Assembly: GCA_016219015.1 (NCBI GenBank)
Contig: JACRCL010000012.1
Location: forward strand, 124,001-188,000
Reading direction: 5' to 3'
DNA from: Deltaproteobacteria bacterium
GTDB lineage: Bacteria > Desulfobacterota > GWC2-55-46
DNA: 64,000 nucleotides
Both the position numbers and the translations under genes were made by a program. The notes below the pieces were generated by a model. That model was not told the DNA's origin, made no database searches, and saw nothing but the letters and a program-made list of their open reading frames with translations. The stretch's first letter is position 1. Each line of letters starts with the position of its first letter. Positions 43,838-59,833 of this stretch are shown here, piece after piece.

Positions 43838-44629
43838 TCAAAGGGATATTTTAAAAAAGGAGGGGGGCTTCCTGTCCCATAATTTTCCGAGCCTGCGGAA
43901 CTCGGCCATGCGGCAGGCGAGGAACGCCTCGGCAAGGCCGCTACCGCCGCTCATGAGCGAGTAATACCTCGAAAGGCCGGAGGCCGCGCCGCTCAGGTCC
44001 AGCATCTCAAGCTGCGACCTGTGCTCGGCCAGCGCCCTGTCCTTAAGCGCGCTCATGGGCGTTATGTCTACGAGGAGGTTGAAGGCGGGCAGAGGCGTCC
44101 AGATGCCGTAGGAATAGCACATGGTGGCAGGGGCAGACCTTGCCCTCGACGCCAGCAGGAATATGCGGCTTGCCGCCATGTGGTCAACGTGGTTATCCAT
44201 GAAAAAAGGGAGGAAGACCGCCTCCGGCCTTATCTCGGCGAGGATATCGGACAGCTCCGTTACGGTCTTGTATGTCGGGGCGAGCTCGCCGTCCCTGTTC
44301 TGGAGGAATATGAGCCTGTCTATGCCGACTATTCCGGCGGCCCTCCTGGCCTCTTCCTTCCGGATAGCTACAAGCTCGTCTCCCGTCGTCTTCCTGCCGC
44401 CTTTTCTCCCGTCGGTCATGTAGACCGACGTGACCTTCGCGCCGCGTCTCTTATACAACTGCAGCGTCCCTCCGCAGCTGATGATGTCGTCGTCAGGGTG
44501 CGGGGAGAGTATCAGGACCTTTTTTTCGTTCAACCCCTCCGGCCTCGAAGCGCGTAGACCCCGGAACGGGTCCAGGGAGCGCTTGATACATTCGGGCGCA
44601 AACCGTCTGTACAGGTTCCGCAGGAACAT
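43838..44629 (-). CDS. PIG-L/LmbE-family deacetylase
   Basis: A 263-residue zinc-dependent N-deacetylase for sugar or lipid-linked GlcNAc-type substrates. Metal motifs are ILSPHPDDD (about 40-48) and NHVDHMAA (about 145-152). It is the last gene of the glycan-type cluster, separated from the PHP gene by a family A repeat. Likely substrates are N-acetylated sugars made by the cluster. Confidence 0.9.
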   Translation of the reverse strand: MFLRNLYRRFAPECIKRSLDPFRGLRASRPEGLNEKKVLILSPHPDDDIISCGGTLQLYKRRGAKVTSVYMTDGRKGGRKTTGDELVAIRKEEARRAAGIVGIDRLIFLQNRDGELAPTYKTVTELSDILAEIRPEAVFLPFFMDNHVDHMAASRIFLLASRARSAPATMCYSYGIWTPLPAFNLLVDITPMSALKDRALAEHRSQLEMLDLSGAASGLSRYYSLMSGGSGLAEAFLACRMAEFRRLGKLWDRKPPSFFKISL

Positions 44630-44642
44630 GGCCGCCTCCTTG

Positions 44643-44794
44643 GCTGGCTGCTAAAAAACTCAAAATTCGAAGAGGCTGCTCAAAAAGTCTAAGATGCAAG
44701 GAGTCGAAAAGCTTGGAAATGAATCGTACCTTGTAGTCGCAATGGCGAATTTTGAAGACGACGCCGCAGATTGGGCTTTTTCAGCAGCCTCTTA
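44643..44794. repeat. Family A palindromic repeat (copy 5)
   Basis: GGCTGCTAAAAAACTCAAAAT to GGGCTTTTTCAGCAGCC, with the second core type (GATGCAAGGAGTCGAAAA and GAATTTTGAAGACGACG). It abuts the PHP stop codon. Confidence 0.85.
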
Positions 44795-45406
44795 ATAGCC
44801 TTTGCCGTAGACCCCCCTGTAGCCGCCCCTTTTAAGCGTCTCTATGAAGTTAGCGTAATTTACATCGGTGTCAAATTCGGTATAGCACCTGCCTACCTCG
44901 TCCTTGCTGTGCGAATCGCTCCCGCCCGTGGTGGGCAGGCCAAGGGCCCTGGCCGCGCTCATGGCCCTGTGGTTATCGTCCCTGCTCGTATGCCCGTTGC
45001 ATGCCTCTATGGCTGATATCCCACCGACCTTGCCTATCTCGGCCTGGAAGAGGAGCCACTCCCTGAAGGGGTGCGGCACGACCACGGCCCCGTTCCGCTC
45101 GTTCACGAGCCTCACTATCTCTATGACAGGCAAATGGAGGCCGAACTGCCGGAGGTCGTCCTCTTTTATGCCGAAGAGCAGCACGTGCCCCTCTGCCGCG
45201 GTATACTCCGCCCCGCTGAAGACCATTATCCTGTCCCTGTACCTGCGGCGGAGCATCTCGACCCTCCCCTGGTCGGTAAAGGACTGGTGCTCGGTAAAGG
45301 CGATGCCGTCGAGCCCGGCCTCTATGGCCTTCTCCACGGACTCCTCCGGGGTAGCGGTGCTGTCCGGGCTGAAGACCGTATGGTTGTGCATGTCTATAGT
45401 TGTCAT
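44792..45406 (-). CDS. PHP-domain phosphoesterase
   Basis: A 204-residue PHP fold with metal motifs DMHNHTVFSPDS (start), FTEHQS, GAEYTAAEGHVLLF, VVPHPFREW, EACNGHT and GGSDSHS, so the trinuclear metal site is complete. PHP proteins hydrolyse phosphate esters or nucleotides. The start at 45406 is used as upstream residues are not family-like. It lies 13 bases after the PRTase-kinase fusion gene. Confidence 0.88.
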   Translation of the reverse strand: MTTIDMHNHTVFSPDSTATPEESVEKAIEAGLDGIAFTEHQSFTDQGRVEMLRRRYRDRIMVFSGAEYTAAEGHVLLFGIKEDDLRQFGLHLPVIEIVRLVNERNGAVVVPHPFREWLLFQAEIGKVGGISAIEACNGHTSRDDNHRAMSAARALGLPTTGGSDSHSKDEVGRCYTEFDTDVNYANFIETLKRGGYRGVYGKGY

Positions 45407-45419
45407 TCGCGCCGCCTTA

Positions 45420-47171
45420 TTACGCTGAAAGTTTGAGTATCTCACTTTTAAGCATGAGCCCGTAGCCTTCGAGCAGCGCCTTGAAGCGAGGCCCGTCGGG
45501 CGTGGCCCTCATCTCCCTCTCCGCGAACGTGCAATAGCCCAGCCTGTACGCGAGGTAGGCGAGCGAGTAGAAAGGCAGCCTCGCCGCAACATCCTTATCA
45601 CCGGTAAGGGAGATATACCTGCCCATGAGCCGGGCGGAGCTTGATCCGTCGAGCCCGAACTCGACAAAAGCCCCGGCCACGTCCCACGCGATATCCTGCG
45701 CGCACGGGAAGAACTGGTCTGAGTAATGGTCGAAGCCGTCTGCCTTTATGTACCCATGCCCGGTGTCTATCCACTCATGCGGGAGCATCCTGCCGTCCAC
45801 CTCCGAAGGGGGGCTGTCCTCCACAATTTTGCGGAACCCCCTTAAAGGACTCAGCCTCCCGGCCCACTCCTGCCCGAGGCCGAGGAGGGTATTGCGCTCG
45901 GCCATGCCGTACAACTCGTCAAAAGCCATGTCCTTGCGCGCCGGGAGATTATTCCTTATGAAGGCGAGGTACTCGCCCATCCTGTCGAGCAGTTCCGGGC
46001 GGATACTGCCTTTCGTTACGGGCCTGCCTTGCTCGAAGCCTACATCGAGGAAGCCGTTCTTAAGGCCGTGGACCTTCTGGACAAAGCCCGCCCCGGAAAG
46101 CCTCCCGGCCCTTGAAAGCTTTATCCTCCCGTAGCGCCCGAGCCCCGCGAACCGGAGCAGCCTTTCCCCCCCTGAGCCGTCGTCGAAGAGGTACTTCCTC
46201 TTCTCGTGATACGGGTCCACGGCCGGATAGTCGGAGCTGTCCTCGAAGAAACGCCCCCTCCAGAAACCGGCCGAGACGTCTATTGGGGCCGAAACCCCGG
46301 CCAAATCGGCAAGCCTTCCGCTTTTTACCCAGATATCCCCGAAGCTCCCTGTATACTTCCTGTGCCTTTGCCATCTCCGCCTGGCGGACTCTGAAAAAAA
46401 ATTCGCCCCGTCCGGCTCCCAGCTCGGGAAGATGACTATCCTCTCATCCGGTATCCCGAGAGAAGAGAGGCAATCGGCAACGCTCGACAGGGACGTGCCG
46501 CTAAGCCCCGGCCCCTCGTCGACTATCAGGTAATAATCGGCGCGCGTCACTGGAAGCTCGCTGGCAAGCCCGCTCGATAATATCACCCTGCGGTTGAAGG
46601 GGTGCTCCCTGGGCCTCAAGGTAAAGGGCGATACTGCGCACCCTCTGTCCTCAAGGACGGCCGCGACAACCGATGAAAGGCTTACGCCTATTGAACGGAG
46701 CCCGATGCAGGCCGCCCTTTTCGGCCTGTTCTCGGCAAAAAACCTCCTGGCCGCTTCAAGATACGTCTCCGGGTAGAGCCCGTAATGCGCGAACCCTTCG
46801 GGCTCGCGGAGCGTTATGTCGCCGGGCAGGTCGAATCTAAAGAGCCCCTGTATAGCATCCCTCAGCATGGAGGCCCACTTCATTGGGCCGTCTCCGTCCC
46901 CGCCCCTTTCCACCTTCTCCCATGAAGAGCGGAGTATATGCCCTGCAATCACCCCTGCCTCATCGAGGGCGCGGGTCATATCGTTCCGGGTGTCCTCCTG
47001 GGGGCATACGGCGTCCATGACGCCGGAGGCGAACTCCCCCCATTCGATAAGTGCCTCTACCGCGTCCCCGTGGCAGAAGGCGCCTTCATCAAAACGCCTC
47101 AGGAGCGCCAGCAACCTGCTCATGCAACCGCGCGTCGTTGCCGTGCTCTCGGCCTTTCTGTAGACTATCAC
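45420..47171 (-). CDS. Phosphoribosyltransferase-like / aminoglycoside kinase-like fusion
   Basis: A 583-residue protein of two parts. Residues about 120-250 have PRTase features: RAACIGLRSIGVSLSSVVAAVLE and the PRPP loop IVDEGPGLSGTS (216-227). Residues about 325-500 resemble an APH/choline kinase: KYLFDDGSGGERLLRFAGLGRYG, then DHYSDQFFPCAQDIAWDVAG (481-500) in place of the usual metal site. I do not know a characterised protein of this layout. It starts at GTG overlapping the FemAB-like stop as GTGA. A role in making or attaching a phosphorylated ribosyl or sugar unit is guessed from domains. Confidence 0.65.
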   Translation of the reverse strand: MIVYRKAESTATTRGCMSRLLALLRRFDEGAFCHGDAVEALIEWGEFASGVMDAVCPQEDTRNDMTRALDEAGVIAGHILRSSWEKVERGGDGDGPMKWASMLRDAIQGLFRFDLPGDITLREPEGFAHYGLYPETYLEAARRFFAENRPKRAACIGLRSIGVSLSSVVAAVLEDRGCAVSPFTLRPREHPFNRRVILSSGLASELPVTRADYYLIVDEGPGLSGTSLSSVADCLSSLGIPDERIVIFPSWEPDGANFFSESARRRWQRHRKYTGSFGDIWVKSGRLADLAGVSAPIDVSAGFWRGRFFEDSSDYPAVDPYHEKRKYLFDDGSGGERLLRFAGLGRYGRIKLSRAGRLSGAGFVQKVHGLKNGFLDVGFEQGRPVTKGSIRPELLDRMGEYLAFIRNNLPARKDMAFDELYGMAERNTLLGLGQEWAGRLSPLRGFRKIVEDSPPSEVDGRMLPHEWIDTGHGYIKADGFDHYSDQFFPCAQDIAWDVAGAFVEFGLDGSSSARLMGRYISLTGDKDVAARLPFYSLAYLAYRLGYCTFAEREMRATPDGPRFKALLEGYGLMLKSEILKLSA

Positions 47172-48187
47172 CGGGCCTCCAGACTGAAAGATTGGTGGGT
47201 TATCGTCAGCCTGTAATTCAACCTGTCCCTCGCGCCCCAGCGGTATTTGTGCCCCTCCCTGCCGCGAAGGAGGTCGGCCTCCCTGAGCCCCTCCCTTATC
47301 GCCTCCTCGATGGCGTGGAGGAAGATAGACCTGCCGGGGCTCAAACTCTTGAGTTCAGGGTTGAAGCCGCAGAGGTAAAAGTATTTGCGGCCTGCCCACA
47401 CAAAGGAATAGAGCGCCGCCGCGTCCGTCCCGCCGATCCTCATGCGATAGAGCCTTAAAAGCCCCTCTTCGAGAAAGCCTTCGGCAACGCGCCTGTTGAA
47501 AGACCTTAGACTTTCATCCGACAGTACCCCGGCTTGTCCCTTTGTCTCCCAGCGCGAGCAGTGGAGCTTGAAGAGGCAGTCGATGTATTCTTTAAGGGTA
47601 TCTTTATTTGCGGCGTCTATCGATACGCCCGGCCTTTTGAGGCAGTTTTTCAGATAGCGGAGCCTTTTCCTCGGCCTCGTGGAAAAACTTGAGTAGAAAT
47701 TCCCGGACGACCCGGGAAGGTCGATCACGGGGCAGGCGTCCATTTGAAAGGCCCTGCGGAAGACCCCTTCGGGCATATAAACGGAAAGGAGCGGCGAGGA
47801 GGGCCTCAGCTCCTGAAAGTCGCATATGTCCCAGCTCTCCTTATCATCGAGAAGTGTATCGAACAGTAGCCTTACGCACGCGCCCTCGCTGCCCGGCTCG
47901 GCGATAATGTCGAGGTAATCGGATACGCCGTTGCCGGCGATATAGAGCCCCCTTGCACCGTCCTCCCCCGTATGGCCGTAGAGCGGGGCTATGCAAACGA
48001 CCCTCCCCTCAGACCTTATTACGAAGACGCGGAGGTTACGCCCCGAGAAATGGCCGCACCACGGAAGGAGCCACCACGGCGACTGGAACGGGGTCGAGGA
48101 AGGGCACCTCTTCCAGAGCCCGGCCCACTCGGACTTTAACGCGCACAATCCATCGGGCGAATTTATCTCGTCTATGGATAGTTTCAT
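47168..48187 (-). CDS. FemAB/GNAT-like acyltransferase
   Basis: A 339-residue protein of the FemAB-like (BioF2/CelD-like) GNAT group: FQSPWWLLPWCGHFSG, a first GNAT fold, then RPRKRLRYLKNCLKR, FKLHCSRWETKGQAG and the second half GGTDAAALYSFVWAGRKYFYLCGFNPE with SPGRSIFLHAIEEAI. Such enzymes transfer aminoacyl or acyl groups to sugars or peptides. The ATG at 48187 overlaps the upstream stop as ATGA. Confidence 0.82.
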   Translation of the reverse strand: MKLSIDEINSPDGLCALKSEWAGLWKRCPSSTPFQSPWWLLPWCGHFSGRNLRVFVIRSEGRVVCIAPLYGHTGEDGARGLYIAGNGVSDYLDIIAEPGSEGACVRLLFDTLLDDKESWDICDFQELRPSSPLLSVYMPEGVFRRAFQMDACPVIDLPGSSGNFYSSFSTRPRKRLRYLKNCLKRPGVSIDAANKDTLKEYIDCLFKLHCSRWETKGQAGVLSDESLRSFNRRVAEGFLEEGLLRLYRMRIGGTDAAALYSFVWAGRKYFYLCGFNPELKSLSPGRSIFLHAIEEAIREGLREADLLRGREGHKYRWGARDRLNYRLTITHQSFSLEAR

Positions 48188-49206
48188 GGCTTCCGCATGC
48201 ATATCTTTTTATACGCCTCTATATACTTTGCCGCCATGACGGCGGAAGAGAACCTCTTGCGGGCCTCCGCCATGCAGACCTCCGGGGAGATGCCTTTAGC
48301 GTCATTTATCGCCTTTGCCATATCGTCCGTATTTTTTACGAGAAAGCCCGTCCTGCCATGCTCGATGATCTCTTCGAGCGCGCCTATGCTGTTAGCGACC
48401 ACGGGCGTGCCGCAGGCGAGGGCCTCCATGGCCACGAGCGAGCTCGTCTCGGGCACAAGGCTCGGCACTATCAGGCACCGCGCGGCCGATAAAAGCCTCC
48501 GCTTCCTTTCAAACCCCACGGGGCCGATGAACCGGCAGCCCTTCCCGAGTTTTGGGGCCAGCACCTCACGGAAGTACCTCTCGTGCTCAGGGTACGGGTA
48601 GACCTCGCCCGCTATTATAAGAGGTATGTCCGCTTCGCGCGCGGCGTCTGCCGCTATATGGAAACCCTTCTCGGGGCAGACCCTCCCGATGGATATGGCG
48701 AAGGACCTTTTAGCCGCCTTCAGCCTGAGCCTTTCCACCGGGACGCCGTTTTCTATGAGCGGGATGGACTCGAACCCGTGCATAGCCCTCCTCTGCGAAC
48801 CGGATACGCAGTTGAAGTACGTACCGGGCCTCAACAAGCTGAACGCGTCTTTTCCGTACCATTCGAGCGGCAGGTGGAGGGTTACAAGCACGGGCACCCC
48901 CGGCTCCGGCAGATATGAGCGGAAATCCAGCCCGTGCATGTGGACGATGTCGATCGCCTGTCCCTTCAGGGCCTTTCCTATGGCGGCCTTGAAGGCCGAA
49001 TGCGCCCTCCTCCGGGCCTTTTCGTCTATGACGCCCGTTGGGGAAGGCATTGCGATAAGCTCGCCTTCAACTTCCGACCCTTCCTGGGCTATCACTATCG
49101 AGCGGTTGCCCGCGCGCACGATGGCGGCATCGAGCATATGGAGGACCTGCTCAGCGCCCCCGGCTGAACCGGCCCTTACGGGCGCGAACGGGTACGCCAC
49201 GCTCAA
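48184..49206 (-). CDS. Glycosyltransferase family 4
   Basis: A retaining GT-B glycosyltransferase of 340 residues. SAGGAEQVLHML (N-terminal substrate loop), VCPEKGFHIAADAA and SLVPETSSLVAMEALACGTPVV (the E-x7-E motif) are typical. The TTG at 49206 lacks a good binding site; CTG at 49224 overlaps the glycosidase stop as CTGA and would add KPITV, the usual start of the family, with AGAAGG upstream. Confidence 0.88.
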   Translation of the reverse strand: MSVAYPFAPVRAGSAGGAEQVLHMLDAAIVRAGNRSIVIAQEGSEVEGELIAMPSPTGVIDEKARRRAHSAFKAAIGKALKGQAIDIVHMHGLDFRSYLPEPGVPVLVTLHLPLEWYGKDAFSLLRPGTYFNCVSGSQRRAMHGFESIPLIENGVPVERLRLKAAKRSFAISIGRVCPEKGFHIAADAAREADIPLIIAGEVYPYPEHERYFREVLAPKLGKGCRFIGPVGFERKRRLLSAARCLIVPSLVPETSSLVAMEALACGTPVVANSIGALEEIIEHGRTGFLVKNTDDMAKAINDAKGISPEVCMAEARKRFSSAVMAAKYIEAYKKICMRKP

Positions 49207-49220
49207 TACCGTTATCGGCT

Positions 49221-50108
49221 TCAGCGCGCGTACCTTCTTACCATCCGCGCGCAGAAATCCGCGTACTCGCCTATGTCTTTCGGAGGGCTGGTGTGGTCAG
49301 GCCGAAGCCCCCTCTCATCCGGAGTAAAGCAGAACGTGACCGTCACCTCGAACCCTTCCAGCGCCTTCATCAATCTATCGAACCACGAAAGGGCTCCGGG
49401 GCGGAGGCTGTCGGCCCAGCTTATCCCGGTCCTCAAGTATCTGACCCCGAGCCTTTTAAGCCATTTTGCGGCGTCCTCCACCCTGTGGTCGTTGAAGTGG
49501 AACCACTGGCATATCCCGAGCTCGGGAGCGTAGCGGCGGAAAATCCTAAGCGCCCGCTTGGGCGCGCCGTCCTCCCGGATAAGCCCCATGTGGAAGTGCC
49601 TGTAGTACGACGACCCCTCGGCCTCGCGGTGCCTCGTCGTGGCGGGCCACGCGCGAGGCAGGTCGTAGAGGCTGTACCAGTGTATCCGCGCGGCCCGCCC
49701 AATCAGCAGCTCCGCGCTCCTTATAAGCCCGAACTCCTGCACCTCCTCGGCCCCGAAGCTCGAAACGCCCACCTCAGATACCCAGACCGGCAGGCCGGTC
49801 ACGGCCTTTATCTCCTGCAACCTTTCCGGCCACTCGTGTATGGTCCAGTGGTTCCAGTCGAGCGGGAAGCCGTGGACGGCCACCACGTCGAGGCTGTCGA
49901 GCGCTCCCTTGCCCTTCATGTTCAAGATGAAGTCCGCGTCTATCGGGGAGATGCCCCCGAGCACGCGCTTGAGAGCCGGGTTCTCGGCCTTTACGGCGGC
50001 CGAGGCCTCCCTTACCATCGCGGCGTAAATTTTCCAGTCCGGGTCCATGTGGAAGTCCCAGTGGGAGAGGTTGTTCGGCTCGTTCCAGAACATCACCGCC
50101 TCTACCAT
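49221..50108 (-). CDS. Glycoside hydrolase-like TIM barrel, apparently circularly permuted
   Basis: A 295-residue clan GH-A type protein. The acid/base motif WNEPN (8-12) is at the N-terminus and the nucleophile motif VSEVG (110-114, E112) follows. After strand 8 (HWYSLYD) and an RIFRRYAPELGI linker comes material that opens normal family members: WFHFNDHRVEDAAKWLKRLG, GVRYLRTGISWAD, then WFDRLMKALEGFEVTVTF and a final MVRRYAR. Thus strands 4-8 precede strands 1-3. It overlaps the nucleotidyltransferase stop by seven bases. No signal peptide, so it is cytoplasmic. Confidence 0.72.
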   Translation of the reverse strand: MVEAVMFWNEPNNLSHWDFHMDPDWKIYAAMVREASAAVKAENPALKRVLGGISPIDADFILNMKGKGALDSLDVVAVHGFPLDWNHWTIHEWPERLQEIKAVTGLPVWVSEVGVSSFGAEEVQEFGLIRSAELLIGRAARIHWYSLYDLPRAWPATTRHREAEGSSYYRHFHMGLIREDGAPKRALRIFRRYAPELGICQWFHFNDHRVEDAAKWLKRLGVRYLRTGISWADSLRPGALSWFDRLMKALEGFEVTVTFCFTPDERGLRPDHTSPPKDIGEYADFCARMVRRYAR

Positions 50109-50854
50109 TTGTCTTTCTCCCTGATATGCCCCGGCATTGTTGCCAGTAGCCTAATCGCCTCCCTGTAGCCGTGGACCGTCCCCACGTCCACATAGGCCGT
50201 GCCCGCCCTGGACCCGGTGACGGCCCCGCCGCCCCGGATATATTCGTTCACGAGCGTCCCGATATACTCGTCTTTTTTCCCGCGCGAGAGCCAGAGCCCG
50301 TACAGCTCCTTCAATACCCTGCACCTCATCCTGAACGCGCCCCACACCCAGCCTGTTGAGGCGTCCGTTCGCTTTACCTGGACTTCCAGCACCCTGCCAT
50401 TTTTATTCGTGACGACCGCGTCAAAGGACTCGGGCCTGTCCACCTGGAAAAGGAGGAACGTGAAGTCCCCTTTCCCGATGGAGCGGAAGCCGTCCTCGGG
50501 GAACCAGATGGTATCGGGCAGCCCTATGGCCACGTCCTCATCGGGGCTGACCATCGGCAGGGCCCTGAATATCGCGTCGCAAAGCCCGAGCGCGCGCGGC
50601 TGCACCGTGTAGCAGACGTGAGCGCCTTTTATATCCGCCCCGTAATATCCGAGGATGTCGGATTTCCCCGGCGAGATGACAAAGCATATCTTCGTGACCC
50701 CGCCGACGAGCATCCTGTCGATAAGATACTCGCTTACGGCCCTCGGCTTCTCGGTGCCGCCCTCGAAACGGCTCCCTACTGGCAATAGCTCTTTCGAGAA
50801 GGCGAGCGGCTGTATCCTGCTGCCCGCCCCGGCCGCCGGTATTATCCCCCACAT
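50102..50854 (-). CDS. Sugar nucleotidyltransferase
   Basis: A 250-residue enzyme of the glucose-1-phosphate thymidylyl/uridylyl family. The start at 50854 has AGGGGG upstream and gives MWGIIPAAGAGSRIQPLAFSKEL, the nucleotide-binding loop with its lysine. GLPDTIWF supplies the metal-binding aspartate. It activates a sugar phosphate as NDP-sugar for the cluster. The exact nucleotide cannot be told. Confidence 0.9.
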   Translation of the reverse strand: MWGIIPAAGAGSRIQPLAFSKELLPVGSRFEGGTEKPRAVSEYLIDRMLVGGVTKICFVISPGKSDILGYYGADIKGAHVCYTVQPRALGLCDAIFRALPMVSPDEDVAIGLPDTIWFPEDGFRSIGKGDFTFLLFQVDRPESFDAVVTNKNGRVLEVQVKRTDASTGWVWGAFRMRCRVLKELYGLWLSRGKKDEYIGTLVNEYIRGGGAVTGSRAGTAYVDVGTVHGYREAIRLLATMPGHIREKDKW

Positions 50855-50870
50855 GGCAATGCCCCCTAAT

Positions 50871-51137
50871 AGGCTGCTGAAAAACTCAGAATCACATACA
50901 GGCTGCTCAAAAAGTGGAATCTCCCCGCAGCAAGCTGCGGGGAATCTTCGACACATAAGGAAAAGTTTTCGATTCGCTCGCTAAACCCCGCCAAAAGCAT
51001 GCGGGGAGTACGCTCGCTATGCGTGTACAAGATGCAAGGAGTCGAAAAATGAGGAATGAGACGTACTCATCTTGTACGCCGCAATGACGAATTTTGAAGA
51101 CGACGCCGCAGATTGGGCTTTTTCAGCAGCCTGTTAA
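50871..51137. repeat. Composite of family A (copy 6) with family B (copy 3) inside
   Basis: A family A element begins GGCTGCTGAAAAACTCAGAAT and ends GGGCTTTTTCAGCAGCC. Within it, 50917-51030 is a complete family B element, so B appears inserted into A. It fills the gap before the nucleotidyltransferase gene. Confidence 0.85.
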
Positions 51138-52192
51138 CCTGAAAGTATCCTCTCGAACTCAACGGCGCGCCTCTCCGAGCCATGCTCCGCGAGCGCGCGC
51201 ATTCGCGCCAGCGACGCCATTTTGGACCTTTCGGTTACTCCCATTGACATGGCGGCGATTATATCTTCGGTCGTATCGGCCACTATTATTTCTCTGCCCG
51301 GCTCGAAGAAGTCCTCTATCCCGGCCCACCGGTCGGTAAGTATCGGGCTCCCGCAGGCGGCGGCCTCGAAGAGCCTGCCCGAAGGGCACCAGCCCATATC
51401 GGCCATGGCCGCGCGGGTCACGTTCAGGGTAAAAAGGGCCGATGAATAGAACGCGGGGTGGTCTGCCGGAGACACGTGGCTCAGGTAATAGATGTTCTTT
51501 GTCCACGGGAAACCGTCGGGATAGAGCGACCCGCCTATGATGAACTTTTTGCCTTTGAGCCTTTTCGACGTCTCGATGAGAAGGGCGTTGAGCGCCGCCT
51601 GCCGGTCTTCGGCATAGGTGCCGAGGTAGGATAGATCGGCCCTATACGCGCCGGTCGGCTCCACGGGCCTGTGCGCCGCGGGGTCCACGCCGCCGTAAAG
51701 AGGCTCGACCCTTTTCGCGCCGAGCAGGTCTTTAAGCCCGCTTAACGCCCGCCCGCCCGTGTAGCTGAGGACAATGTCGAAGTCCCCGAGCCCCGAAGGC
51801 CCTATGTAACCCGTACCCGCGCCGGAACTCACGTTCTTGAGCGTTACCGGGGTATCGAGGTCATAGAACGCCTTGACCCCGGCCCCGGAAGAGAGGAGAA
51901 GGTCAGCCGCCTCTATCGCGTCCGGGCAGTACGACGTCACTATGCCCGCGTCCGCCTTCGACACCTCGGCCTTCGCCTCTTCAAAGACCTCGTCCCAGCA
52001 CCTGTAAAGGCGGAGCCTCACGCCGGGCGGTTCAGTCATGTCCCTGTGCGCCGCGTAGTATGGGACGTCCTTCTCAAAAAAGGTTATCTCGTGGCCGCGC
52101 TCAGACATGGACTTTAAGAGCCCCCTCCAGATGGTCGCGTGCCCGTTGCCCCATGACGAGCTGATGGTCAGGCCGAATATCGCTATCTTCAT
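51134..52192 (-). CDS. CgeB-like glycosyltransferase 1
   Basis: A GT-B fold protein of 352 residues: MKIAIFGLTISSSWGNGHA, then YLGTYAEDRQ, GSLYPDGFPW and the C-terminal CPSGRLFEAAACGSPILTDRWAGIEDFFEPGREI, typical of CgeB-type transferases. It is nearly paralogous to the next gene upstream. A family A repeat follows its stop. Confidence 0.87.
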   Translation of the reverse strand: MKIAIFGLTISSSWGNGHATIWRGLLKSMSERGHEITFFEKDVPYYAAHRDMTEPPGVRLRLYRCWDEVFEEAKAEVSKADAGIVTSYCPDAIEAADLLLSSGAGVKAFYDLDTPVTLKNVSSGAGTGYIGPSGLGDFDIVLSYTGGRALSGLKDLLGAKRVEPLYGGVDPAAHRPVEPTGAYRADLSYLGTYAEDRQAALNALLIETSKRLKGKKFIIGGSLYPDGFPWTKNIYYLSHVSPADHPAFYSSALFTLNVTRAAMADMGWCPSGRLFEAAACGSPILTDRWAGIEDFFEPGREIIVADTTEDIIAAMSMGVTERSKMASLARMRALAEHGSERRAVEFERILSG

Positions 52193-52204
52193 TCGGAATT
52201 TTTA

Positions 52205-53350
52205 TCAGGGTTTAAGGACCGCGTGCTTTTGGTCCCGCTTATACGCTCTTTCGCGTCCGTTCATGCCTCTTCTTTTGAGCGCTTCTCTCATGTACCCTTC
52301 GAGCTGATCGACCCTGTGGGCCGCCGTGTGGCCGGATAAGACCTTCATGCGCGCCCGCTCGCCGATCTTCCTCCGCTCGTCTTCCGTTATTTCGTTAAGG
52401 TATCTGATGGTGTCACGGGGGCCGTTCGAGATGAGTATCTCCAACCCCGGCCTGAAGAGCCTGTCGAGCCCCTCCCAGTAATCGCTTATGATGGGGGTCC
52501 CGCATGAGGCGGCCTCGAAGAGCCTGACGCTCGGCGAATACCCGGTCCTTACCATATCGGCCCTTGTCACGTTGAAGGCGAACCTCACCGAGTTGTAAAA
52601 ATCCCTGTGCGCCGAAGGCGGGAGGTGCTCGACCCTCCTCACGTTATGCGGCCACCTGAGGGCCGCGGGGTAGAGCGCCCCGGCCACGATGAACCTCCTG
52701 TCCCCGAGCTTCCTGGCGGGATCGAGCATGAGTTTCTCGAGTATCGGCTGGCGGTCGTCGCTGTATGTGCCCAGATACCCGATATCCCAGTCCTTCTTCT
52801 TTTTGCACGGGTAGTAGACCTCCGGGTCCGCCGAGCAGTAAAGGGGCCTCGACATCGGGGAGCCCCACCTCTTTTCTATGTACTCGGTTATCGGCCCGCC
52901 CGTGAACGAAAGGTACAGGTCGTAGCGCCGTATAAGCTCGGGCGAGATGTATTCGCAGTCACCCCTTTTTATCTTCGCCATGGTCACGGGGGTGTCGATG
53001 TCGTAGAAGGCCCGCGCCCCGTTCGCCGTATCGAGGACCCAGCGCCCGAGGGCGCAGCCCTCGGGCACGTAGGAGCCGACCATCACGAACGACGCCTCCC
53101 TCACATCGTGCGAAAAGCGTTCCTTCAGGTCATTAAGGTCACGGTACAATTCGGCGTGGCCGTGACTCGCGCACGGCCACAATAGGTCCCTGTTCGCCCT
53201 ATACCAGGGCGTGTCGCGCTCCAGGAAAAGGACGTCGTGCCCCCTCTTTGAAAGCTCGCGCACGAGGCTCCTGTACGTGGTGGCGTGGCCGTTGCCCCAT
53301 GAGGACGTTATCGACAGCCCGAAGATTACTATCTTTAGCGGCGGGGTCAT
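52205..53350 (-). CDS. CgeB-like glycosyltransferase 2
   Basis: At 381 residues, a close paralogue of transferase 1: FGLSITSSWGNGHATTYRSL, DIDTPVTMAKI, YLGTYSDDRQPIL, SVRLFEAASCGTPIISDYWEGLDRLFRPG. The acceptor is unknown. It lies 12 bases upstream of transferase 1 in the operon. Confidence 0.87.
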   Translation of the reverse strand: MTPPLKIVIFGLSITSSWGNGHATTYRSLVRELSKRGHDVLFLERDTPWYRANRDLLWPCASHGHAELYRDLNDLKERFSHDVREASFVMVGSYVPEGCALGRWVLDTANGARAFYDIDTPVTMAKIKRGDCEYISPELIRRYDLYLSFTGGPITEYIEKRWGSPMSRPLYCSADPEVYYPCKKKKDWDIGYLGTYSDDRQPILEKLMLDPARKLGDRRFIVAGALYPAALRWPHNVRRVEHLPPSAHRDFYNSVRFAFNVTRADMVRTGYSPSVRLFEAASCGTPIISDYWEGLDRLFRPGLEILISNGPRDTIRYLNEITEDERRKIGERARMKVLSGHTAAHRVDQLEGYMREALKRRGMNGRERAYKRDQKHAVLKP

Positions 53351-53371
53351 TCAAACCTCCTGCGGTTTTAA

Positions 53372-53523
53372 CAGGTTGCTAAAAAACTCAAAATCATTAA
53401 GGCTGCTCAAAAAGCTCCAGATGCGAGGCCCCGTTGAAATAGGGGAGCGAGGAATGAGACGCACTCTCCTTACGTTGTGACAAGACGAAGACAACGAAGC
53501 AGATGGACTTTTTCAGCAGCCTG
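53372..53523. repeat. Family A palindromic repeat (copy 7)
   Basis: GGTTGCTAAAAAACTCAAAAT to GGACTTTTTCAGCAGCC with the CTCTCCTTACGTTGTGACAA core. Its right end supplies the last residues and the TGA stop of the preceding transferase gene. Confidence 0.85.
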
Positions 53524-54613
53524 TCGGGACATTTGCGCGGAACTCCGTTGAAAAAAGCCGATCAAGCGCCTTTGCCCTGTGTGCGTAAGTGTGCGAGCCG
53601 AGAATCCTCTCGAAAGCGGCCCTACCGATGGACGCCGCCTCTCCGGGGGTAAGCCTCTTGAGGCACTCCGCCACCCCGTGCCCGTCCTTTGCGACGAGCA
53701 CCTCCTTGCCGGGCTTGAGGAAGAGCTCTATGCCTTCCCATTCGTCGGTTATTATGCAGGCCCCTGCCCCGGCCGCCTCGAATATCCTCGTGGGCGGCGA
53801 AAAGCCGTACCTTGCCATCGATTCCCTGTTCACGTTCAATACCGCCCTTGCGCTGCAGTTGAAGGCGTTATGGTCGCGGGTGTAGACATGGCCGATGTAC
53901 TTGACGTTCGGCAGCCCCGTGCCGTCCCAGCCGTTCCCGCCGAGGATGAAACCGCGGTCGGGAGATCCGGCGGCGGCGTTGAAGAAGAACTCCCATACGC
54001 GGGACTCCCTGTCCGGCAGGCGGTTTCCTATGAAGCCGAGGTCGCACCTGTAACGCTCTTCGGCCGCAACCGGATAATGCGAGTCCGGGTCGAGCGCGTT
54101 GTATATGGGGACGCACCCCTTCGCGCCTAACATATCGTATGCGTCGATGACGGGCCTGCCGCCGCCGTACGTCAGGATGAGGTCGTACTCGGGGATGAGC
54201 TTCAGGAACGGGTCGTTGCCGTTGCCATTGACCCTGTCGAGGGTGGCGGGCGCGTCCACGTCCCAGAATACAGCCTTCACACCCGGCCTCCTGAGCTCAA
54301 GGACAGCCTCTTCCAAAAATTCATCGAATACCCCTACCCCGCTCGCCTTTATTATTATGTCGGCCTCGGACGCCTCTTTCAATGCCTGGAGGACCCCGCC
54401 CCTGTTCGCCTCAAAGACCCTGACTTTGGCCCACGACGGGCTTAAAATGTCCCTGTGCATCTGCCTGTCGTAAGCGTCCGGCTCGAAGAACGTTATCTCG
54501 TAGCCGAGCGAATCGAGGGCGCGCGTTATGCCCCTGTAGTACGTTGCCGCCCCGTTCCAGTAAGCCGACACGAGGCTCGATCCGAAAAAAGACACCCTGA
54601 TACGCTGCTTCAT
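53513..54613 (-). CDS. CgeB-like glycosyltransferase 3
   Basis: A 366-residue member, more divergent: FGSSLVSAYWNGAATYYRGI, FWDVDAPATLDRV, DLGFIGNRLPDRESRVW, PTRIFEAAGAGACIITDEWEGIELFLKPG. Its last codons (TGC and TGA) lie inside the family A repeat, so that element may have cut a longer C-terminus. Confidence 0.85.
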   Translation of the reverse strand: MKQRIRVSFFGSSLVSAYWNGAATYYRGITRALDSLGYEITFFEPDAYDRQMHRDILSPSWAKVRVFEANRGGVLQALKEASEADIIIKASGVGVFDEFLEEAVLELRRPGVKAVFWDVDAPATLDRVNGNGNDPFLKLIPEYDLILTYGGGRPVIDAYDMLGAKGCVPIYNALDPDSHYPVAAEERYRCDLGFIGNRLPDRESRVWEFFFNAAAGSPDRGFILGGNGWDGTGLPNVKYIGHVYTRDHNAFNCSARAVLNVNRESMARYGFSPPTRIFEAAGAGACIITDEWEGIELFLKPGKEVLVAKDGHGVAECLKRLTPGEAASIGRAAFERILGSHTYAHRAKALDRLFSTEFRANVPTGC

Positions 54614-54638
54614 CCGGCGACTCCTCCCTTAACTCCCC

Positions 54639-55724
54639 TTAAAGCCCTGCGTAGACGGCCATAAGCTCATCCACCCTGTGGCCGCACGTATGCCTTTTTA
54701 GTATCGTATCGAGGCCGTGAGCGGAAAGCTCCTGCCTCAATCCCCCGTCGTTTAAAAGTTCCTTCAAACGCTCTTTCATCTCGGCCCCGCTCCTCGCCAC
54801 GATGAAGTCTTTGCCCGGCGTAAAGAGGCCTTCGGAGTCCTCCCACGGCGCGGACACAAGCGGGATGCCGCACGCGAGCGCCTCGAAGACCCTTATCGTC
54901 GGTATGCCCGGCAGGGCCCCGGCGTACGGCCTTCTCGGCACGTGCACCGTGAACTTGTACCTGGCGAAGATATGCGGCACAGCGTAGTTCGGCAGCCATC
55001 CGCCGTACTCCATGCCCGATTCCCTCAGCGTCTCGATGGCGCTCGCCGGGTACCTTACCCCGTGTACTCGCGTCTTAAGGCCGAGCGCTCTGGCGGGTCC
55101 GTGGAGGAACTCGCGGAGCTCGGACGTCCTCTCACCGTCCCCCCAGTTCCCTATCCAGACGAGGTCCCCGGCAAGGATCAGGCCCGGAAAAGGGCGGAAT
55201 AGACGCACGTCGGCGGCCTCGTGCCAGACCCATGCCCTCGCGGCCCAGCCCCTTGAGATATATATCTCCCTTATGACCTCGCCGAACGCGAGGACGCCAT
55301 CGTAATTGGAAAGGTCGTACCGCTCCATCTCCTCCGGCTTTGTGATTGACCGGTGGTGGGTGTCGTGGAAAAGGAGCTTGAAGCCCCCGGCCGACCTCCT
55401 GTATTCCCCTATCTTTCTGACAAGCTCGTGGTCGTTCCACTCGTGGACTATGACGAGGTCGGCCCCGTCGAGCGCCTCTCCGAGGTCGAGTCCGTCCAGG
55501 TCGTAGCGTACGCTTTCGAGCCAGGGACAGACCGATAAGAGCCTCCGTACGGGCGACATGCCGTAATCGGCCAGGAGGTTTTTAAGGCTCCACGCCCCCC
55601 TCGGTTCATACACCGTGACGACGTGCCCGCGCGACAGAAGCTCCGATACTACACCTCTTAAGAAGTGGGCGTTCCCGTGGTTCCAGTCCGAAAGGACGGA
55701 GTGGCAGAAGATCACAACGCGCAT
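54639..55724 (-). CDS. CgeB-like glycosyltransferase 4
   Basis: A 361-residue member: FCHSVLSDWNHGNAHFLRGV, LLFHDTHHRSIT, VWIGNWGDGERTSELREF, TIRVFEALACGIPLVSAPWEDSEGLFTPG. It overlaps the GT4 gene upstream by 13 bases and is 25 bases before transferase 3. Confidence 0.86.
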   Translation of the reverse strand: MRVVIFCHSVLSDWNHGNAHFLRGVVSELLSRGHVVTVYEPRGAWSLKNLLADYGMSPVRRLLSVCPWLESVRYDLDGLDLGEALDGADLVIVHEWNDHELVRKIGEYRRSAGGFKLLFHDTHHRSITKPEEMERYDLSNYDGVLAFGEVIREIYISRGWAARAWVWHEAADVRLFRPFPGLILAGDLVWIGNWGDGERTSELREFLHGPARALGLKTRVHGVRYPASAIETLRESGMEYGGWLPNYAVPHIFARYKFTVHVPRRPYAGALPGIPTIRVFEALACGIPLVSAPWEDSEGLFTPGKDFIVARSGAEMKERLKELLNDGGLRQELSAHGLDTILKRHTCGHRVDELMAVYAGL

Positions 55725-56797
55725 CTGCCCTCCTTTACCGGCCTTTCCGGCTTGAACCTGCCGGAGGCAAGACCCTTGTATATCTCCATGTAACCCTCGG
55801 CCATGCGCGCCGTGTCATATTCGAGCGCGCGTGCGCGGGCCTTTTGCGCCGCTTCACGGAGCAGCAGCGGGCTTCTTATGAGCCTGTTTATGGCTACCGC
55901 GAGCGCGCCGCTGTTCCTCGGAGGCACGAACACGGCGGCCCCGTCCCACAGCTCCCTTAAAGACGGTATGTCGGAGATGACGAGCGCGCAGCCGGAAAGC
56001 CCCGCCTCAAGGACCGACAGCCCGAATGGCTCGTACAGGGCGGGATGCGCGTATATCTTCGCCCTCGAGAGATATCCGGCAACCGACCTTGCGGGCAGCG
56101 GCCCGAGCCTTTTCAAGGCACTCCCCATCCGCTCCCCGCCCTCCCCTGCCGCGTATACGGGCCAGGGGATGAGGTGCGCTATCTCGGCTATTGCCGAGAC
56201 GTTCTTCGCCTCGTCCCAGAGCCTGCCCATGGTAAAGACCATCTCCTCTTTTTTGCCGGGGCCGAATGGCTCCCCGCTCCTTCCGTTCGGCAGGACCGCG
56301 CAGAAGGGGCGTATGAAATAATTCCTGTAGAGCGACGAGAGCATGGCGTTCGTCGGGGCCACTATCGCGTCCGCGCCGTTTAGCCCATTCCCTGCCTCGC
56401 GCCTGTACCTGTCCCACTCCGGTGGCAGCGCCTTGCCGTGGACGGCCTCCCACCACGAGACGACGCACGAATGGGCGGCGATTAACTTCGGGGACTTCCA
56501 GCCCAGTCCCCCGTGGCAGAAGCCGTTGAGGTGCACCACGTCGGGCCGAAGCCGCTCCTCGACCGAAAGAAGCCATTCCCCGGCCTTCCTTACGTCGTCC
56601 CACGGGTCTTCCATCCATTCGAGCTTGAAGCCGCCTTCGAGGACCTCGAGGTCCGGTATGCGCGCGGCGTCCTCTTTTTTGTCCTCCGTAAGAGGCGGGC
56701 CCATGAGCGCCAGAGTCACGCGCGCCCCGTGCGCCCCTATAGCCCTTGCCAGCTCAAGGGAATACGTCCATACACCTCCGGCGCAGTCGGCCGTCAT
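55712..56797 (-). CDS. Glycosyltransferase family 4
   Basis: A 361-residue retaining transferase: MTADCAGGVWTYSLELARAIG, RLWDEAKNVSAIAEIA and ALYEPFGLSVLEAGLSGCALVISD. Related proteins begin two or three residues before LMTADCAGG, exactly where a family B repeat joins. The frame is open through that repeat to an ATG at 56923 with GAGGAG upstream, so the protein may carry a 42-residue repeat-encoded tail. Confidence 0.87.
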   Translation of the reverse strand: MTADCAGGVWTYSLELARAIGAHGARVTLALMGPPLTEDKKEDAARIPDLEVLEGGFKLEWMEDPWDDVRKAGEWLLSVEERLRPDVVHLNGFCHGGLGWKSPKLIAAHSCVVSWWEAVHGKALPPEWDRYRREAGNGLNGADAIVAPTNAMLSSLYRNYFIRPFCAVLPNGRSGEPFGPGKKEEMVFTMGRLWDEAKNVSAIAEIAHLIPWPVYAAGEGGERMGSALKRLGPLPARSVAGYLSRAKIYAHPALYEPFGLSVLEAGLSGCALVISDIPSLRELWDGAAVFVPPRNSGALAVAINRLIRSPLLLREAAQKARARALEYDTARMAEGYMEIYKGLASGRFKPERPVKEGRCAL

Positions 56798-56804
56798 AAG
56801 GATG

Positions 56805-56921
56805 TTGAATCTCCCCGCAGCAAGCTGCGGGGAATCTTCGACACATAAGGAAGATTTCGATTCCGATTCGCTCGCTAAACCCCGCAGCAAGCTGCGGGGA
56901 ATGCGCTCGCTATGCGTGTTC
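56805..56921. repeat. Family B palindromic repeat (copy 4)
   Basis: Two CCCCGCAGCAAGCTGCGGGG hairpins flank the CTTCGACACATAAGG and GATTCGCTCGCTAAA blocks. It fills the gap between the radical SAM stop and the GT4 gene. Confidence 0.9.
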
Positions 56922-56927
56922 ATCGAA

Positions 56928-58226
56928 CTAACGCTCCTCGTTCAAGCGCTCCAGCTCGTTTATCTTAAGCGGCCTCTGCTCCTGTATGTCGCTGAAGGCG
57001 CTGTAGGCGTTCAGATAGAAGTCGTGCGCGCGCTCCCACGCGGAGCCGTCCGGCAGGCCCCAGCGCCTCCTGTACTCCTCGCTTCCCGGGTAGGGAAATA
57101 GCGGCACCGGCTCGTTCGACCATACCCCGCGCCTTAAAAGCCGCTCCCTCCACCTCTCCACCTCTTCGCGGCAGTCGATGCCGGAATCGAGCAGGGTCGC
57201 CTGCACGAAGGGGACGTGCTCGCGCGCGAATACGAGCAGCCTTTCGATCTCTTCGGTGGAGGCGCGGCAGTTCTTATTGAGATGCGCCCTCCCCTCCACG
57301 GAGACGCTCTCCACGCCCGCCTCAATGGAAACGCACCCGGCCTTGCCGAGGAGCCTCAAGGGCTCCTCGTCCCACAGGTCTATGCGCGTCTGGATGCCGA
57401 ACCTTATCTCCCTCGTTGACAGGGCCTCGAGGAGTTTTTTGTCCGGGAGGAATATCTCGTCCGCGAAATAGACGTAGCCGGCCCCGCTCTCCATAAGGTT
57501 GTCGAGCTCTTTCAATACAGTGGCAGCGGGCCTTTTGCGGTACGCGTTCCTGAAATCGTTCCTGGCGCAGAAGGAACAGGAGTAGGGGCAGCCCCGAGAC
57601 GCCTCCATCTCGGCCCCGAACCCGCTTACCTTCCCGTCGAAGCGGTGGTGGTGATGCGGGTGCCTTCTTATGGAATCCGTTGTCCATGAGAGCGGAGGGA
57701 GCAGCGCCATGTCCGATTCATGCGGCGAGCCCTGTATATGGATAGAGTTGTCCTCCCTGTAGCAGACCGACGGCACGCCTTTCAAATCCGTCATCTTCCT
57801 CCCGGCGAGCTTTAAAAGGGCCTCCTCGCACTCGCCCATCACGACGATATCCGCGCCGAGCTTTTTCAATACCGCGACCGGCGTCGTGGAGCCGTGCGGC
57901 CCTATTACCGTTATTATCCCGCCGCGGCCCTTGAGCGCCTCCACGGTCCTGCGCGCGTGTTTAAGCTCCGGCGGGGGGCACCTCCAGAAAAGGTACGTCG
58001 GCGCGGTAGGCACCACGGTCATGCCGGGCCTGAACCCTTCCACGGCCTCTATCATTTCATTCTCGGTAAGCCCTTCGGCGTGGCAGTCGATTATAACTGC
58101 GTCGTGCCCGGCGGCCTCGAGCAGGGCCTTCGCGTAACCGTACTCGAGCGGCAGGTGCGGCTCCCTGCAGCCGAAATATATGCTCCCGCTGAAATCCCAC
58201 CTCGGGTTTACAAGCGCGTATCTCAT
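56928..58226 (-). CDS. B12-binding-type radical SAM protein
   Basis: A 432-residue protein with an N-terminal Rossmann/cobalamin-binding-like domain (about 1-140: EPHLPLEYGYAKALLEAAGHD, TVIGPHGSTTP) and a radical SAM domain with C213-x3-C217-x2-C220 (GCPYSCSFC). A His-rich stretch (RRHPHHHHRF, about 187-196) lies just before it. The classic DxHxxG cobalamin motif is not seen, so B12 binding is uncertain. It may modify a sugar, for example by methylation, in the cluster. Confidence 0.85.
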   Translation of the reverse strand: MRYALVNPRWDFSGSIYFGCREPHLPLEYGYAKALLEAAGHDAVIIDCHAEGLTENEMIEAVEGFRPGMTVVPTAPTYLFWRCPPPELKHARRTVEALKGRGGIITVIGPHGSTTPVAVLKKLGADIVVMGECEEALLKLAGRKMTDLKGVPSVCYREDNSIHIQGSPHESDMALLPPLSWTTDSIRRHPHHHHRFDGKVSGFGAEMEASRGCPYSCSFCARNDFRNAYRKRPAATVLKELDNLMESGAGYVYFADEIFLPDKKLLEALSTREIRFGIQTRIDLWDEEPLRLLGKAGCVSIEAGVESVSVEGRAHLNKNCRASTEEIERLLVFAREHVPFVQATLLDSGIDCREEVERWRERLLRRGVWSNEPVPLFPYPGSEEYRRRWGLPDGSAWERAHDFYLNAYSAFSDIQEQRPLKINELERLNEER

Positions 58227-58262: not shown

Positions 58263-58417
58263 AGGTTGCTGAAAAACTCAAAACCACAATTCAGGCTGCT
58301 CAAAAATCCGAGATGCAAGGAGTCGAAAAATGAGGAATGAGCCGTACTTGTCTTGTACGCCGCAATGACGAATTTTGAAGACGACACAGCAGATTGGGCT
58401 TTTTCAGCAGCCTGCTA
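58263..58417. repeat. Family A palindromic repeat (copy 8)
   Basis: GGTTGCTGAAAAACTCAAAAC to GGGCTTTTTCAGCAGCC with the second core type. It touches the epimerase stop codon. Confidence 0.85.
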
Positions 58418-59533
58418 AAGTGTCAGCCCCCGCCACGCCAGCTCCGCGCTCGCCTCGGCGACCCTGTCGCTGGCGACCCTGCCGTCGAGCCACATTGATA
58501 GCTCAAGGAGCCCCTCTTCGAGCGCCACCTTAGGCTCGTAGTTAAGTACCTTCCTTGCAAGCGATATGTCGGCGAAGCAGTGGCGGATGTCCCCCATCCT
58601 GTACTTCCCGGCCACCTCGGGCGCGAGGTCCGGCGCCCCGAAGACCCCGGCCATGCGCTTTGCCACGTCGATTACCGTGTGCCTGGCGCCGCTGCCGACA
58701 TTGAACGTAAGATTCGCCGCGTCCCTTGCCTCGAGGGCGAGGACGCAGGCCGTTGCCACGTCGCGGACGCTCACGAAGTCCCTCTGCTGCATGCCGTCCT
58801 CGTAGACGAGCGGCGGCTTGCCGTTCATGAGGCGCGCCGCGAATATCGCGAGCACCCCGGTGTACGGGTTGGAGAAGGCCTGCCGCGTGCCGTAGGCGTT
58901 AAAGAACCTTAAGGCTACCGCCGGGATGCCGTAAGCCCTGCCGGTTATCATGCACATCCGCTCCTGTCCGTACTTGGAAAGGGCGTAGACGGAGGAGATG
59001 GACGGCGGCTTTTCCTCCGGCGTCTCCACCGGCGTAAGGCCGCAGCCCCCGCTGCCCCTGGGCTCCCATTCGCCTTCTTTAAGCTGCTCCAGAGAGCGCG
59101 CGACGCCAGTCGCCATTGTCCCGTCTGATGTCCTGTAAAGGCCCTCCCCGTATACGCTCATGCTCGAAGCCACTATAAGGCGCTCGACCGGCCTTTTCAC
59201 AAGGGCCTCAAGCAGCACGGCCGTGCCCCTTGAATTTATGTCCGTGTACTTCTCAATCTCGTACATGCTCTGCCCGACCCCTACGGCGGCGGCGAGATGG
59301 AATACCGCGTCGATGCCCTTGAGGGCCCTTTCCACGGCAACGGGGTCCCTGACATCGCCTATGATAAGCTCGGCCTCGGGGTTAAGGTAATCGGGCCTGC
59401 CGGCCTCCGGGCCGTGGACCTGGACGGAGAGGTTATCGAGCGCGCGCACGCGGCAGCCGCGCCTTATAAGCTCATCGGCGAGGTGCGAGCCTATGAAGCC
59501 CGCGCCGCCGGTTATGAGGACGTGCCTTTTCAA
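58415..59533 (-). CDS. NAD-dependent sugar epimerase/dehydratase
   Basis: An SDR enzyme of 372 residues: GGAGFIGSHLADELI, the catalytic S..YxxxK in SSVYALSKYGQERM, and RFFNAYGTRQAF. It acts on a nucleotide sugar such as UDP-glucose/glucuronate. The TTG start at 59533 has AAGGAGG five bases upstream and begins the glycine-rich strand at once. It heads the 14-gene cluster. Confidence 0.9.
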   Translation of the reverse strand: MKRHVLITGGAGFIGSHLADELIRRGCRVRALDNLSVQVHGPEAGRPDYLNPEAELIIGDVRDPVAVERALKGIDAVFHLAAAVGVGQSMYEIEKYTDINSRGTAVLLEALVKRPVERLIVASSMSVYGEGLYRTSDGTMATGVARSLEQLKEGEWEPRGSGGCGLTPVETPEEKPPSISSVYALSKYGQERMCMITGRAYGIPAVALRFFNAYGTRQAFSNPYTGVLAIFAARLMNGKPPLVYEDGMQQRDFVSVRDVATACVLALEARDAANLTFNVGSGARHTVIDVAKRMAGVFGAPDLAPEVAGKYRMGDIRHCFADISLARKVLNYEPKVALEEGLLELSMWLDGRVASDRVAEASAELAWRGLTL

Positions 59534-59833
59534 TTTCGCCTCCTTGAAACCCGCGCGGGCAATAGCTCTCCGCAAGGCCCGAAGGCCTCAAGAAATCAAA
59601 GCTCCGCTGGTTTTTTACGGGCAGGGGCCGGGCGCTTTTGCGGTTAATCAGCGCGATAAGGTTATAACGGAGCGAATCGACGGTATTTTTTGAGTCCGGT
59701 CTTGACCGGGGTAAAGCCCGGATGGGATCAAGCCAGGCAATGTACCCCTTGGTCTAAACTTATATCAGGATTTGAGTTTGTCAAGGGAAGGCGCGGGCGG
59801 TATACAAAGGTGGAGCGGGTGCTATAATCTAAA

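Follow-up and report, generated by a model that had tools for sequence, protein, structure and literature searches.

What does a protein do that combines the outline of a phosphoribosyltransferase (PRTase) with that of a kinase? In this work we asked this of a gene in a 64,000-nucleotide stretch of DNA from a Deltaproteobacteria bacterium, here called the window. An earlier note, made from the letters alone, had described an unrecognised fusion of a PRTase-like and an APH-type kinase-like domain and had proposed a series of phosphoribosyl transfer, phosphorylation and dephosphorylation as a new glycan-modification scheme. The 583-residue open reading frame is indeed there, on the minus strand (the note gave no strand), and the neighbours that had been named, a PHP phosphoesterase, a PIG-L deacetylase, a FemAB-like protein and glycosyltransferases, are all present (Table 1). 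The GTG start is sound, since it is also where the homologues begin (MIVYRK or MLVYGD). The gene shares 4 bp with the upstream FemAB-like gene and, at its other end, runs past the start listed for the downstream PHP gene, a pattern as in a coupled operon. "Unrecognised" is an apt description: no Pfam or NCBIfam model was assigned to the full protein, the best match being a chance one to PHD_3, and where homologues are annotated (PGAP) they are named "hypothetical protein". Eleven full-length relatives from the same GTDB family are 46-51% identical to it, the Acidobacterium homologue (from one Acidobacteria MAG) is 40% identical, and homologues on 89 plasmid records, from Sinorhizobium, Roseomonas, Azospirillum, Rhizobium, Ensifer and Ciceribacter, show about 32-38% identity (31-36% in a sample from the first four of these genera); none was found in the viral and phage collections. 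Neither half occurred as a standalone protein in 395 genomes of the phylum, except for weak matches to COG2187-like proteins. In one relative (G027, L043:8941-10667) the gene is broken in the N-lobe of the kinase-like half, at about residues 348-362; either the gene is disrupted there or the assembly is wrong, and the break does not separate the domains. Taken as a whole, the two domains form a conserved fusion that had gone unrecognised and whose gene context is coherent.

Table 1. The fusion gene, its parts and its neighbours in the window
Feature	Position	Strand	Basis or remark
PIG-L deacetylase	43838-44629	minus	domain match; sole PIG-L found in this genome
PHP-domain phosphoesterase	44792-45445	minus	PF02811/PF13263
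PRTase-like/kinase-like fusion protein	45420-47171	minus	583 aa, GTG start
Kinase-like domain, choline-kinase/LicA/APH fold, residues 276-583	45423-46346	minus	structure and weak profile match
KxDxxDH, residues 476-482	45726-45746	minus	21-sequence alignment
Non-canonical catalytic-loop region DGRMLPHEW, residues 459-467	45771-45797	minus	21-sequence alignment
PRTase-like domain, residues 116-275	46347-46826	minus	AlphaFold2 model and Foldseek to viral PRTases
PRPP-loop-like DEGPGLSGTS, residues 218-227	46491-46520	minus	invariant DEGPG[LM]SG[ST]S, 21/21
Conserved basic loop RPxGHPFxR, residues 186-194	46590-46616	minus	21-sequence alignment
Possible pyrophosphate loop GLRSIG, residues 157-162	46683-46703	minus	assignment inferred from fold position
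N-terminal helical bundle, residues 8-110	46842-47150	minus	AlphaFold2 DSSP
FemAB-like (Acetyltransf_6) protein	47168-48202	minus	domain match; kept in relatives
GT4 glycosyltransferase	48184-49206	minus	domain match and relatives
Clan-A-like glycoside hydrolase, cassette core	49221-50108	minus	63-73% identity across phyla
Sugar-1-phosphate nucleotidylyltransferase-like	50102-50956	minus	domain match and relatives
Four Glyco_trans_1_2 glycosyltransferases	51134-55724	minus	three (52205-55724) cassette core across phyla
GT4 glycosyltransferase, cassette core	55712-56923	minus	conserved across phyla
TIGR04295 B12-binding radical SAM protein	56928-58226	minus	654.7 bits, cut-off 400
NAD-dependent epimerase/dehydratase, cassette core	58415-59575	minus	conserved across phyla

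As a tentative but quite possible explanation, we propose that the fusion represents a new family of PRPP-dependent glycan phosphoribosyltransferases. The PRTase-like half would add phosphoribose from PRPP to an inositol-linked oligosaccharide, the choline-kinase/APH-like half would bind the polyol or sugar acceptor, of inositol type, which it may also phosphorylate unless its catalytic function has been lost, and a neighbouring phosphatase (PHP in the window, a histidine phosphatase in Alphaproteobacteria) would remove the 5-phosphate. The conserved fusion, the kinase fold, the moderately supported PRTase-like fold, the active-site-like invariants of both halves, the membership of a gene cassette and the co-occurrence of inositol-3-phosphate synthase support this explanation; what we infer are the donor, the type of acceptor, what the kinase-like half does and what the phosphatase acts on. 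Should the proposal hold, ribosylated glycans would have one more PRPP-based route and the kinase fold a version whose active site has been rebuilt.

Part of such a pathway has a precedent. Phosphoribosyl transfer followed by dephosphorylation has been described in glycan synthesis for the gPRT/PRP enzymes, among them CriT/CrpP of Haemophilus influenzae type b Bcs3: ribose-5-phosphate is transferred from PRPP by a PRTase-like domain and then trimmed by a HAD phosphatase (PMC10299916, PMC11127046). The scheme would therefore not be wholly new, contrary to the earlier note. These two steps on glycans are already known, as are APH-fold domains; the fusion, the altered kinase site and the link to inositol appear to be new. 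Like these systems, the window's protein has a glycan-synthesis context and a probable phosphatase partner, the PHP phosphoesterase; in its AlphaFold2 model a helical bundle lies beside the PRTase-like alpha/beta core, an arrangement that may correspond to the core and helical bundles of these enzymes. Unlike CriT, whose acidic pair is split between loop 1 (D680) and loop 3 (E818) (PMC10299916), it has a contiguous pair, D218-E219, in 21/21 homologues. Its neighbouring phosphatase is of the PHP or histidine phosphatase type, whereas that of CriT is a HAD enzyme, and no HAD phosphoribosyl-phosphatase was found among the scanned genes adjacent to the fusion. Finally, the window's protein is fused to a kinase-like domain, and no sequence-level match to CriT or the gPRT enzymes was found.

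How firmly can the two halves be assigned? The AlphaFold2 model, built on a 13-row alignment, has a mean pLDDT of 89.5 and a pTM of 0.90, and the two folds whose absence would have refuted the earlier note, PRTase and kinase, are both seen in it, the former with moderate support. For residues 276-583, Foldseek retrieved choline kinases, LicA, homoserine kinase, glucosamine kinase and APH enzymes (E to 8.5e-07), and VIA-align gave a Z of 19.4 to both 3fi8 and 4r77 (for 4r77, rmsd 3.9 with 258 aligned); as modelled, this half has a choline-kinase/APH fold, which bears out the APH-type region of the earlier note. By sequence, its profile reaches LicA (4r77) weakly, with E=0.0074. In profile-profile comparisons against a background of 125 ORF clusters, neither the kinase-like half (against APH families) nor the PRTase-like half (against PF00156 and PF15609) was separated from decoys, and therefore sequence alone proves neither homology. 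COG2187-like proteins alone were aligned to the kinase-like half in the profile comparison, at its C-terminal end and outside the catalytic loop (E 1.3e-5). In other families of the phylum, the profile of this half also finds APH-like/P-loop kinase fusions of about 515-530 aa (L024-L032), the matched region being the C-terminal lobe of their APH-like part.

The window's protein thus shares its fold and a weak profile homology with LicA and other kinases of the APH/choline-kinase fold, and differs from them in being joined to a PRTase-like domain and in its catalytic residues. The kinase motif HxDx4N occurs in 0/21 homologues; in its place stands DxRxxxxEW, with D459 and W467 invariant (21/21) and R461 and E466 in 20/21. 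K476, D478, D481 and H482 are invariant as well, and D478, sitting at the expected place, is by analogy a likely candidate for the metal-binding Asp of the kinase fold. The beta3 Lys and the helix-C Glu are not strictly conserved, position 340 in beta3 being Lys in 15/21 and Arg in 6/21. Two readings of the loop are possible. If no gaps are allowed, D459-G-R461 aligns with H-x-D and E466 with the metal-binding Asn; the catalytic Asp would then be lost, with Arg461 in its place. In the HMMER alignment to LicA a two-residue insertion follows D459, which then becomes the catalytic Asp, with R461 two residues on. Could this half be an active, if atypical, kinase that phosphorylates a sugar or inositol, after which the PRTase half uses the phosphorylated acceptor, as in the scheme of the earlier note? 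Asp459 would then be the catalytic base, Arg461 would contact the gamma-phosphate, and Glu466 and Asp478 would bind metal. The HMMER alignment, the nearly complete conservation of these residues, the frequent Lys at position 340 and the phosphatase gene adjoining the fusion argue for such a bifunctional enzyme; the ungapped reading, the variable beta3 Lys and helix-C Glu and the replacement of the canonical motif throughout, which leaves the postulated phosphorylation step unsupported, argue against it, and we think it rather unlikely. A stricter version, in which one protein performs both steps on an inositol-based oligosaccharide, the DxRxxxxEW kinase phosphorylating the acceptor and the PRTase adding phosphoribose, seems to us improbable; if true, it would mean a new class of kinase active site together with a new family of glycan phosphoribosyltransferases.

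The glycan phosphoribosyltransferase that we favour draws its name from the other half of the protein, residues ~116-275, for which a PRTase-like fold has moderate support in the model. In a viral library, Foldseek matched two proteins annotated as phosphoribosyl transferase, A0A1V0SEQ1 (probability 1.00, rmsd 4.1, 151 columns) and A0A481ZAU6 (probability 0.99, 134 columns), with low TM values (0.41-0.47 of the target) and to targets that are predicted models only; these two named PRTases are among the few non-kinase structural matches of the model. The top 50 of the PDB fold list are filled by kinases, and the list hence says nothing about the N-terminal part. The order of strands and helices agrees with that of a type I PRTase, a core strand being followed by the acidic pair and SGxS. 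Profile searches, which succeeded weakly for the kinase-like half, led to no PRTase family here: no Pfam PF00156 or other PRTase model scored over its cut-off in the fusion members, the nearest being a weak PF00156 match below cut-off in 1/21 (E=0.17), and a PDB search with the profile of this half gave unrelated weak matches. For this reason the assignment is structural and moderate.

The PRPP-loop motif was confirmed. A loose PRPP-loop pattern finds IVDEGPGLSGTS and nothing else in the six frames of the window, and DEGPG[LM]SG[ST]S is present in 21/21 homologues from three phyla, so that it is not due to chance; D218-E-G-P-G222, S224-G225 and S227 are invariant. Compared with the classical loop it has one residue more, and its second acid is Glu. 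By regular expression the classical 13-residue PROSITE signature was found in 0/21 homologues; this signature is not sensitive, as it matched 9/24 PF00156 control loci. PRTase_2 (PF15609) likewise has a PRTase-type PRPP loop outside classical nucleotide synthesis, but its loop (DDEISTGRT) is one residue shorter and its profile did not align to the fusion. Also invariant in 21/21 are G157, R159, S160, I161 and G162 of the possible pyrophosphate loop and R186, P187, P191, F192 and R194 of the basic loop. As read from the alignment, both active sites of the fusion are non-canonical. That this half is some other alpha/beta enzyme with a merely PRPP-loop-like loop, for example a phosphohydrolase or a nucleotide-sugar-using enzyme, would agree with the atypical loop and with the lack of a significant sequence match to any PRTase family, but we give it little credence in view of the two named PRTases over 151 and 134 columns and of the type I arrangement.

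The gene context places the proposed phosphoribosyltransferase in a biosynthetic setting that reaches further upstream than the earlier note had considered. The fusion gene is a core member of the "oligosaccharide" cassette known at NCBI by TIGR04295 (B12_rSAM_oligo) and TIGR04290 (meth_Rta_06860), and this holds in three phyla. The epimerase, the GT4, three Glyco_trans_1_2 proteins, the clan-A-like hydrolase and the fusion are common to the window, the Acidobacteria contig and the alphaproteobacterial clusters, most of them being 48-73% identical, the GT4 32-48% and the fusion 32-40%. The TIGR04295 gene is present in the window and in the Acidobacteria and Azospirillum clusters and was not seen in those of Sinorhizobium, Ensifer and Roseomonas. 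In the window's family the following order is preserved: glycosyltransferase, nucleotidylyltransferase, hydrolase, GT4, FemAB, fusion and PHP. Our literature search found nothing on TIGR04290/TIGR04295 or on the S. meliloti and Ramlibacter loci, and no paper in it described the fusion protein as belonging to this cassette. The proposal offers a testable activity for an unannotated, fixed part of a widespread oligosaccharide cassette, in three phyla that include the model symbiont Sinorhizobium meliloti. Some PRTase-fold proteins, such as PyrR and PurR, are regulators, and the altered catalytic residues of the kinase fold would suit a dead binding or regulatory module next to a PRPP sensor or a user of another ligand; the fixed place of the fusion in this cassette, conservation that is strongest in the putative active-site loops and the lack of any DNA- or RNA-binding domain seen in the protein make a regulator a poor candidate.

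Of the linked genes that had been suggested as partners of the proposed transferase, the PHP gene held its place, directly downstream of the fusion in the 12 relatives with a contig match at this position, and the deacetylase did not. The window's PIG-L, downstream of PHP, is not the positional orthologue of the PIG-L in the relatives' cassette, which lies elsewhere in their cluster; its part in the scheme is weakened because relatives have no PIG-L at that place. The relatives also carry TIGR04290 and often a second methyltransferase. TIGR04290 is present in 10/12 fusion-carrying genomes and absent from the window's genome (96.6% complete), which has lost or lacks both this gene and the relatives' cassette PIG-L. 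The nucleotidylyltransferase and hydrolase genes abut at 50102-50108, where relatives have the TIGR04290 methyltransferase in between, an apparent trace of its loss in the window's genome. The hydrolase, with a WNEPNN motif, is the best-conserved cassette gene over three phyla and has hardly any Pfam assignment; it is named beta-xylosidase in Alphaproteobacteria and may act in synthesis rather than breakdown.

Why do we think of an inositol-type acceptor? Inositol-3-phosphate synthase, which the earlier note did not mention, is found in the same 12 of the 18 genomes of the window's family that carry the fusion and in 0/6 others, and the same holds exactly for TIGR04295 over its cut-off. The chance of 12/12 versus 0/6 is 1/18564 if genomes are independent, which they are not. 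Two genera (g7 and g11) each hold both states, which means that more than a single ancestral split lies behind the link. Among 336 sampled genomes of the phylum TIGR04295 was over cut-off in fusion carriers only. The cluster that holds the fusion in Sinorhizobium, Ensifer, Azospirillum and Roseomonas also contains inositol-3-phosphate synthase and a histidine phosphatase; the feature table of one S. meliloti record gives the phosphatase and no synthase. The phyletic match suggests that the cassette product contains inositol, and our proposal ties the cassette to inositol phosphate. On the other side, the synthase is unlinked in the window's family and could serve inositol lipids. In the window's genome it lies on a different contig (26373-27524), in tandem with a following AP_endonuc_2 gene (xylose-isomerase-like, TIM-barrel).

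The alphaproteobacterial versions of the fusion (L048-L051) are carried on large plasmids or chromids. Several of these loci adjoin stress-associated genes (DUF1003, Hsp20, YsnF/AvaK and sensor kinases), which suggests a stress-related product.
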